DNA from: a virus
Virus record (IMG/VR): IMGVR_UViG_3300028025_004775
Location: 1 to 27,316 of that record
DNA length: 27,316 nucleotides
Direction: 5' to 3' (one strand)
Notes under the pieces: generated by a model
Databases searched by the model: none
Seen by the model: the letters and a program-made list of their open reading frames with translations, nothing else
Told to the model about the DNA's origin: nothing
Shown here: piece after piece, positions 1,726 through 4,518 of the stretch
How the letters are laid out: each line of letters begins with the position of its first letter
How positions within the stretch are numbered: position 1 is the stretch's first letter
Position numbers and translations under genes: made by a program

Positions 1726-2193
1726 ATGGCAAAAGACCCAGCAGTATTGTTTTATACGCAAGATTTCTTAGTAGGAACAATCACAATGACAAATGAGCAG
1801 AGAGGTAAATATATTACTTTACTTTGTTTACAACATCAGAAACAAAAACTGACACTTAAAGATTTACAAATGTATCTTACTGATGAAGATATTGAAGTAG
1901 CAGAGAAGTTTCCTATTCAATCTGATGGTTACTATTATAATTTAAGAATGTTTGAAGAAGCAACTAAAAGAAAAAATTATACTGAAAGTAGAAGAAATAA
2001 TAGAAAAAAGAAAGATGAAGTAGATATATCTTTATTATCTAAATCATATGTTAATCGTATGGAAAATGAAAATGAAGATGTAAATGTAAATGTAAATACA
2101 CTTGTAAATAAAAATGAAAATAAAAATGTAAATGTAATTGTAGATGAAAGTGTAAGTTCCTTATTTGATGATTGGAATAATACTGAAGATTAA
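1726..2193 (+). CDS. Replication initiation-type protein (DUF1376-like N terminus)
   Basis: 155 residues. The N-terminal 85 residues (MAKDPAVLFYTQDFL..., GT, MTNEQRGKYITLL, L-Q, then a region with DLQMYL) match the pattern I know from DUF1376-type domains: a winged-helix module at the start of phage replisome-organiser or DnaD/O-like proteins in Bacteroidetes phages. A basic segment (residues about 81-96, RKNYTES followed by RR-N-RKKK) could contact DNA. The C-terminal third is low-complexity, rich in N, V, E and K, built from AAATGT-like hexamers at DNA level. It is shorter than typical organisers, which carry a second helicase-loader domain, so this may be a stand-alone DNA-binding form. 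The downstream neighbour is a non-coding block. Role is inferred from the N-terminal pattern. Confidence 0.6.
   Translation: MAKDPAVLFYTQDFLVGTITMTNEQRGKYITLLCLQHQKQKLTLKDLQMYLTDEDIEVAEKFPIQSDGYYYNLRMFEEATKRKNYTESRRNNRKKKDEVDISLLSKSYVNRMENENEDVNVNVNTLVNKNENKNVNVIVDESVSSLFDDWNNTED
2077..2155 (+). repeat. AAATGT-type hexamer repeats inside CDS
   Basis: Imperfect tandem hexamers (gtaaat, aaaatg and related) encode alternating Asn-Val and Asn-Glu/Lys residues at the C terminus of the replication-type protein. Gains or losses of whole hexamers keep the reading frame, so copy number may vary among relatives without inactivating the gene. Confidence 0.6.
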
Positions 2194-2203
2194 TTATAAT
2201 TTA

Positions 2204-2241
2204 TTTGGTATTTAATAAAAAATAAAGTATATTTGTTAATA
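2204..2241 (+). promoter_or_regulatory. Bacteroidetes-type promoter driving candidate small RNA
   Basis: TTTG at 2204-2207, a 20-base spacer, then TATATTTG at 2228-2235: an exact match to the Bacteroidetes -33/-7 consensus TTTG-N(about 20)-TAnnTTTG. The -7 element runs directly into TTAATACATA, the same sequence type found in the gap motif elsewhere in the window. Transcription would start at about 2241-2243. Confidence 0.7.
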
Positions 2242-2348
2242 CATAAGAGTCAGTGAGGATAGTGCCATTTCCAATATCTGACCTCCTTACTATATTGAGA
2301 GGAAAATAATACTCTCACATCCCTATCGGTTCTCGGTAGGGATTTTTT
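2241..2348 (+). ncRNA. Candidate phage small RNA with own terminator
   Basis: A non-coding block of about 105 bases sits between a consensus promoter and a strong intrinsic terminator. I can pair three stems by eye. Stem 1 is 2252-2259 with 2284-2291, eight pairs including one G-U. Stem 2 is 2296-2301 with 2312-2317, six pairs (TGAGAG/CTCTCA). Stem 3 is the ten-pair terminator 2319-2328 with 2334-2343. A competing pairing is GTCAG 2249-2253 with CTGAC 2278-2282. There is no convincing ORF. The GIY-YIG gene downstream has a separate promoter, so this unit need not be its leader. It does not resemble tRNA, 6S or tmRNA to me. Alternatives are an attenuator leader for the next gene, or an intron-like remnant. 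Confidence 0.55.
2319..2348 (+). terminator. Strong intrinsic terminator
   Basis: Stem ATCCCTATCG (2319-2328), loop GTTCT, stem CGGTAGGGAT (2334-2343), followed by a T tract to 2348. Ten pairs with one G-U. This is the best terminator in the window and closes the candidate small-RNA unit. Confidence 0.85.
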
Positions 2349-2359
2349 ATGTCAAAATA

Positions 2360-2391
2360 TTTGTTCGTTTGGCAAAAATGGAGTATATTTA
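2360..2391 (+). promoter_or_regulatory. Bacteroidetes-type promoter for GIY-YIG gene
   Basis: TTTG at 2360-2363, a 20-base spacer, then TATATTTA at 2384-2391 (seven of the eight consensus positions including wildcards). It begins only 12 bases after the terminator T tract and lies 33 bases upstream of the start at 2425, so the endonuclease can be transcribed on its own. Confidence 0.6.
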
Positions 2392-2424
2392 TATACATAC
2401 ACTAACTAAATAAATGGCACAATT

Positions 2425-3960: not shown

Positions 3961-4518
3961 ATGAATAACGAAGTAACACAGAGTATGCAGACAGAATGTA
4001 ATCAAAGATTAGATACTCTATATAGAATGCATGGAGAGTGGATAAACAATATCACACTCAATATGTGTAAAAATAAAGGGGTTACAGAAGAAGTAGTAAG
4101 TGATTTATATCTTTACTTAGCAGAGAAATGTAATCCTAAACTATTTTATAAAGAGAGTTACAACTTACATTATGTTTATATGTTCTTAAAGACGAGAGCA
4201 TTGAATATGTTAAAGAGAAACGGAAAGGTACAAACACTACCGGAGAATTGGGATTTGGTTGATAATGATTATGATATAGAATACGATAATAGAATAGAGA
4301 AAGCATACTCAGATGTAAAAGAAGAATTAGAAAGTATGAAGAAAAGAAAGGGATGGAGTAGTGCAGTAATCTATTCACATTATTATTTTAGTGATAAAAC
4401 ATTAGATGAAGTAAGTAAAGATATCGGTATTAGTAAATCAACCACATTCTTAGCAGTTAAGAAAACAAAATTACATTTAAAAAATAATATAGAAAACCCA
4501 TTTGAAAATGACAAATAA
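3961..4518 (+). CDS. Sigma-70-like (ECF-type) RNA polymerase sigma factor
   Basis: 185 residues. Residues about 20-90 form helices with the spacing of sigma region 2 (W27-I-N-N-I, L49-Y-L-Y-L-A-E, F75-L-K-T-R-A-L-N). An acidic linker follows (98-112), and residues 146-172 (KTLDEVSKDIGISKSTTF...) make a helix-turn-helix like region 4. Such small sigma-like proteins are common in Bacteroidetes phages and probably direct host RNA polymerase to phage promoters, although -35 and -10 contacts cannot be read from sequence. The recurring gap motif in the structural region is a candidate target. The start is directly after the previous stop; the 3' end overlaps the next small ORF by 11 bases. Confidence 0.65.
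   Translation: MNNEVTQSMQTECNQRLDTLYRMHGEWINNITLNMCKNKGVTEEVVSDLYLYLAEKCNPKLFYKESYNLHYVYMFLKTRALNMLKRNGKVQTLPENWDLVDNDYDIEYDNRIEKAYSDVKEELESMKKRKGWSSAVIYSHYYFSDKTLDEVSKDIGISKSTTFLAVKKTKLHLKNNIENPFENDK

Follow-up and report, generated by a model that had tools for sequence, protein, structure and literature searches.

A 27,316-base fragment of an uncultured phage (the window, meaning the whole stretch of DNA that was analysed) most likely carries, just upstream of a homing endonuclease gene (HEG), an independent gene for a structured small RNA of ~108 nt, as judged from its promoter, terminator and fold. Homing endonucleases are selfish DNA-cutting genes, which phages keep in check. The reading we favour, with a probability of roughly two in three, is that of a phage antisense small RNA acting in trans, and perhaps in cis as well, to block translation of the resident HEG. 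The RNA would probably silence or delay this neighbour; we infer transcription, pairing in the cell, the repressive direction of the effect and its benefit to the phage. Including a second RNA from sister phages, two new structured RNA classes were identified in uncultured Bacteroidetes-type phages, neither of which is in Rfam 15.

Organisation of the RNA locus

Terminase, portal, helicase and sigma-factor-like genes were recognised in the window. Its closest named relatives by terminase were Bacteroides phages (36% identity), and no named phage gave a DNA match to it. The RNA locus comprises the following features:

1726–2193 (+): upstream primosomal-like gene (MAKDPAV; PHROG 3992, E 4e-4), the usual left neighbour
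2204–2235 (+): RNA promoter, Bacteroidetes-type TTTG-N20-TATATTTG (TTTG 2204–2207, N20, TATATTTG 2228–2235), exact match, kept in homologues
2240–2348 (+): small RNA transcript of ~108 nt with three hairpins and no ORF, ends predicted
2249–2282 (+): hairpin 1, GUCAG 2249–2253/CUGAC 2278–2282, inner GGA 2257–2259/UCC 2270–2272, 10-nt loop UAGUGCCAUU 2260–2269 (also given as UANNGCCAUU)
2262–2270 (+): proposed antisense seed GUGCCAUUU
2296–2317 (+): hairpin 2, UGAGAG/CUCUCA (stem 2296–2301/2312–2317), conserved loop with AAAUAAUA
2319–2348 (+): intrinsic terminator, hairpin 2319–2343 (11 pairs) plus T-run
2360–2391 (+): second promoter, TTTG-N20-TATATTTA, for the homing endonuclease, kept in most relatives
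2412–2420 (+): proposed target AAAUGGCAC around AUG 2414 of the MAQL leader ORF, complement of the hairpin 1 loop
2414–2428 (+): four-codon leader ORF ATGGCACAATTATGA (MAQL), its stop overlapping the HEG start codon; also present in contig L090
2425–2928 (+): free-standing homing endonuclease (PHROG homing-endonuclease matches, E 2e-9 and 1.9e-8)

The initial annotation had described an exact promoter, an ORF-free transcript, an intrinsic terminator and a separate promoter for the next gene, and all four were recovered. The motif TTTG-N19-21-TATATTTG occurs once in the window, against a shuffled expectation of 0.08 per window on both strands. Because the −7 box sits at −12 to −5 (PMC9723704), the RNA would start at ~2240. 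Stops interrupt all six frames across the unit, and indels between RNA homologues rule out any common ORF. Two terminator-like sites were present in the scanned region versus 0.1 expected, and the fold of 2236–2352 had a z-score of −3.6.

Of the three stems first drawn, hairpin 2 and the terminator stem stood unchanged, whereas the 8-pair stem 1 (AGUGAGGA/UCCUUACU) proved to be a competing single-sequence fold. The covarying stem is GUCAG/CUGAC, which single-sequence folding begun near the predicted transcript start also favours. An outer helix joining the RNA 5′ end to the linker was predicted for some sequences and set aside; it uses bases at or before the predicted start. Classical attenuation of the next gene, another early suggestion, is unlikely because a complete promoter separates the terminator from the gene; what survives of it is a possible cis effect on read-through transcripts.

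Conservation and covariation of the RNA

RNA homologues were found in no fewer than 15 distinct contigs of related phages. They lay at the same place in seven lineages when relatives fetched by helicase and terminase were compared by blastn, and a three-part motif scan of IMG/VR supplied further ones. Both the RNA promoter and the terminator were conserved among them. A covariance model recovered the known loci, the incomplete locus L013 and later L187, L188 and L177; its match to window positions 2244–2348 scored 70.9 bits, the window sequence itself being part of the model. Less certain are four distant candidates (L089, L005, L035 and L081), which share only hairpin 1 with a GCCAU loop and the terminator. 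Phage ribosomal protein bS21 genes (PF01165) lie directly before a GCCAUU-loop hairpin and terminator at L154:3748-3984 and L005:5045-5281; a link between bS21 and the RNA was rejected, the gene preceding the RNA in these two contigs only.

Base pairs were counted on a hand alignment of 13 distinct sequences, padded with N, MAFFT having misaligned hairpin 1. Across 24 pairs in three helices, 96.5% of cells were paired and 13 of the 24 pairs had changed on both sides, giving a covariation score of 0.500 compared with 0.191 in shuffled alignments and no more than 0.111 when the register was slid. Two-sided changes affected 5/9 pairs in helix 1, 3/6 in helix 2 (98.7% of cells paired) and 5/9 in the terminator helix. 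The stems of the homologues thus covaried and did not admit indels freely, the reverse of the pattern named at the outset as speaking against a functional RNA. Together with the conserved promoter, terminator and second promoter, and the persistence of the unit while its neighbours change, this supports the original proposal of an independent structured RNA.

The RNA had initially been matched to no known family, and Rfam 15 likewise returned no match for the window. The best weak scores, for L10_leader and PyrG_leader, were 21.3 bits (threshold 65) and 19.1 bits (threshold 44), below gathering. Other members of the class and the sister class, searched against the same release, yielded solely a tRNA elsewhere in contig L064 (a tRNA gene of a related phage, L064:5590-5660). 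Judged by these searches, the RNA class is not in Rfam 15.

A role as a mimic of a host RNA or as an anti-defence decoy had also been raised; it found no positive evidence, and no host copy passed. The RNA pattern was sought in 85,000 bacterial species, where 32 matches were obtained, none above chance by the covariance model, and in 395 Flavobacteriales genomes, where five weak matches resembled ordinary gene-end terminators. On one Flavobacteriales chromosome (L164:1501-1609, minus strand), the 3′ end of a gene has 18 nt (CAGTTCTTTAATGCCATT) in common with one homologue, and a terminator comes after it; this was judged to be chance.

Complementarity of the hairpin 1 loop to the endonuclease start

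The loop sequence GUGCCAUUU (2262–2270) is perfectly complementary over 9 nt to AAAUGGCAC (2412–2420). As a target of the loop, the HEG start ranks first of the 35 ORF starts in the window (−13.4 kcal/mol; median −4.3). These observations support the early suggestion that the RNA regulates a phage mRNA and narrow the target down to the neighbouring HEG start. Hairpin 1 would expose its 10-nt loop for pairing with this start; the pairing would span the start codon and block initiation, and HEG made from its own promoter at 2360 would be silenced or delayed. The small RNA would act in trans, and in a transcript reading past the terminator the same loop would fold back onto the start in cis. In the window, blocking the AUG of the MAQL leader ORF should also stop the coupled HEG, because the leader ORF overlaps the HEG start. 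In relatives, the HEG itself begins at the ATGGC equivalent to the leader-ORF start; the sequence suggests that a lesion converted the old HEG start into the MAQL leader peptide.

The same complementarity could serve a cis leader, in which a leaky terminator lets the loop silence read-through transcripts only, the second promoter gives a translatable mRNA in the manner of I-TevI and the short RNA is a by-product. The predicted best fold of 2240–2440 does join the hairpin 1 loop and the HEG start over 9 bp, the RNA usually lies within 70–105 nt of the HEG start plus its own length, and T4 endonucleases have been shown to have their promoters in the same order (PMC2988022). Yet an exact dedicated promoter and a strong terminator are conserved, as are covarying hairpins not needed for the pairing. 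In the L005 contig, moreover, 3 kb and two genes (helicase and primosomal-like) separate the RNA from the HEG, yet loop and HEG start still match over 10 nt (GCCAUUGGAA/UUCCAAUGGC). Trans action is favoured because of the dedicated promoter and terminator, the extra conserved hairpins and this distant 10-nt match, and we consider a purely cis-acting leader unlikely.

It is also conceivable that the RNA regulates other phage or host mRNAs in trans, or binds a protein, through its GCCAUU loop, the HEG match being a side effect of AUGGC. The GCCAUU core is near-invariant in the window's class while the stems covary, and of the 271 ORFs counted in seven of the phages, 51 begin with AUGGC. Within the window's class alone, loop/start specificity fell short of significance (p about 0.37 for the run, about 0.06 for the energy), because nearly all of its starts are AUGGC, and a U-U mismatch at −1 interrupts the match in 6/15 members. 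The class also conserves loop-2 and linker sequence, both of which the antisense model leaves unexplained. Against this reading stand the first rank of the HEG start in the window and the sister-class loop, which follows changes in the HEG start (see below); we hold it to be rather improbable. A search for targets among all phage gene starts, leaving the HEG idea aside, turned up no single recurring non-HEG target. An anti-Shine-Dalgarno role of the linker CCUCCUUA found no support: only CCUUA is well kept, and partners in start regions did not recur.

The HEGs of L165, L184 and L168 have no adjacent RNA; a matching RNA predicted elsewhere in the contig was not found. Two of these contigs carry another hairpin (L165:2985-3062 and L184:3690-3764, loops UUAUUAGCCAAAUUGU and CUUAGCCAUAUUGU) with an identical terminator before the MAKDPAV gene, and neither loop matches the HEG start of its contig.

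A sister RNA class whose loop changes with the endonuclease start

Sister phages, with terminases about 75–80% identical, carry a different promoter-RNA-terminator unit in the same slot. At L034:3225-3420 this sister RNA consists of P1, an A-rich bulge, P2, a GCU/AGC mini-helix and the terminator. The slot was likewise occupied in L036, L020, L085, L027, L038, L023, L067, L053, L048 and L073, and in L170, L171, L174, L175, L180, L192, L196, L216 and L221, the revealing loci having been fetched through the upstream gene. Its hairpins covaried as well when counted in Python, with 98% paired and 9/14 pairs changed on both sides (0/500 shuffles as good); Rfam gave no match.

Here it is the terminator loop that carries the anti-start sequence, which tracks the HEG start as the start changes. 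Loop and start changed together as GUCAU/AUGAC, GCCAUCGGUU/AACCGAUGGC, GCCAUCUU/AAGAUGGC and GUCAUAUU/AAUAUGAC, and individual loci paired as follows:

L034, L048: loop UUUGUCAUU with HEG start AAUGACAAA
L027, L023: loop UGCCAUCGGUU with HEG start AACCGAUGGCA
L038: loop UGCCAUCUU with HEG start AAGAUGGCA
L175: loop AGUGCCAUCUU with HEG start AAGAUGGCACU
L170: loop GUCAUAUU with HEG start AAUAUGAC
L180: loop UUGUCAUACU with HEG start AGUAUGAUAA
L171: loop UAGUCAUU with HEG start AAUGACUA

Sister loci L201 and L174 lacked a loop/start match.

Taking the two RNA classes together, loop and HEG start co-change. Over 33 distinct pairs, mean energies were −10.1 kcal/mol for own and −7.1 kcal/mol for swapped loop/start pairs, with mean complementary runs of 7.5 and 6.3, respectively. 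None of 20,000 permutations was as good as own pairing, nor was any in the sister class alone (0/20,000), the permutations ignoring relatedness (loop and start may have switched independently some 4 to 6 times) and the loop windows having been picked after the pattern was noticed. Positions −1 and +4 each covary between loop and start (0/20,000 for both), and the HEG start was the best target of its own sequence in 15/36 loci, with 2.2 expected. The co-change signal survived reduction to 16 representatives as well as removal of the five strongest pairs, and five contigs found afterwards through a motif in another part of the sister RNA gave p = 0.011. An automatic comparison of full units again picked loop and start in most loci; several gave other best sites. 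Co-change of this kind between a separate small RNA and the HEG start would be an unusually clear case of RNA-target co-evolution, readable from sequence. We regard the chances as evenly balanced that these phages encode a trans-acting RNA family dedicated to silencing resident HEGs, the loop being re-tuned upon each new endonuclease start; this would represent RNA-based control of a genomic parasite within a virus.

No specific loop/start complementarity was detected in a third clade (L257–L304; p 0.23), where a terminator lies 24–57 nt before an HNH-like ORF, many with CAUU in the loop.

Exchange of neighbouring genes

The window HEG combines an N-terminal zinc-ribbon/endonuclease VII-like part with a GIY-YIG part. 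In complete loci of the window's RNA class, the next gene is always a HEG or HEG-like ORF of varying family: about five unrelated types of nuclease-like ORF occur on the right, followed by a small conserved ORF (MCIIKLGN). Several of these match HNH_3 or homing-endonuclease profiles, while the L098- and L027-type ORFs have no Pfam match and are nuclease-like by sequence resemblance alone. On the left, the usual MAKDPAV gene is replaced in some loci by an HNH, GIY-YIG or other ORF. As neighbours change while the RNA stays, the RNA is not tied to one downstream protein.

This exchange bears on a further possibility: the neighbouring nuclease might use the RNA as its cofactor or guide, as IscB does its omega-RNA (HEARO), or the RNA might be an RNA antitoxin. 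As such a role would have it, every complete locus of the class places a structured RNA beside a nuclease-like ORF, but the same RNA precedes several unrelated nuclease types, the ORFs span 120–175 codons without an IscB or TnpB match, and Rfam yielded neither an omega-RNA/HEARO nor an abiF (RF03085) or type III toxin-antitoxin match, the neighbour in the window being a homing endonuclease and not Abi/ToxN. We consider this very improbable. Chance intergenic hairpins without RNA function, as might be expected in an AT-rich region where weak stems are common, are already refuted computationally: diverged phages retain the promoter, the terminator and, through compensatory changes, all three helices.

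Comparison with known regulatory RNAs

The mechanisms described for T4 HEGs work either inside the endonuclease mRNA or at the promoter, and RNA hairpins silence I-TevI, I-TevII, I-TevIII and segB, as well as mobE of phage Aeh1 (PMC2988022). The antisense RNA proposed here shares with these hairpins an RNA structure covering the translation start of a phage HEG, and a promoter between inhibitory sequence and gene that yields unblocked mRNA (PMC2988022); in the window, the inhibitory sequence precedes the internal promoter at 2360 and can pair with the start in read-through. The T4-type inhibitor, however, belongs to the mRNA that it controls, where it masks the Shine-Dalgarno site (PMC2988022), whereas here the loop of a separate promoter-to-terminator RNA covers the start codon. 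A new form of HEG control would be provided by a separate small RNA whose loop covaries with the start codon of the gene.

The c4 RNA of phages P1 and P7 also directs a loop-borne antisense sequence against the region where ribosomes bind on the transcript of an adjacent phage gene (PMC12197685), and the loop in the window similarly complements the translation start region of its neighbour. The two differ in target (an endonuclease, not an antirepressor), structure and host group, and no antisense family in Rfam matched. Most likely, the RNA works like c4 and the T4 endonuclease hairpins while being a member of neither.

In its anatomy, the RNA has what trans-encoded small RNAs have: its own promoter and terminator, no ORF and a conserved structure. 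With Flavobacterium and Bacteroides small RNAs such as Rfp18 it shares the promoter type, short independent transcripts and predicted stem-loop/mRNA pairing (PMC9723704); those, however, are bacterial genes, whereas the window RNA was found in phage contigs only and has one neighbouring predicted target. The abiF RNA/RCd22 resembles it as a structured RNA with its own terminator directly before a potentially harmful phage-borne gene (PMC12373285). RCd22 binds the AbiF protein (PMC12373285), in contrast to the window RNA, whose nuclease neighbour varies and is linked to it by base complementarity.

A protein encoded further downstream (3961–4518) weakly matches PHROG 1740 (phage RNA polymerase sigma factors, E 3e-7) and occurs throughout these phages; it might provide timed expression of the RNA region.
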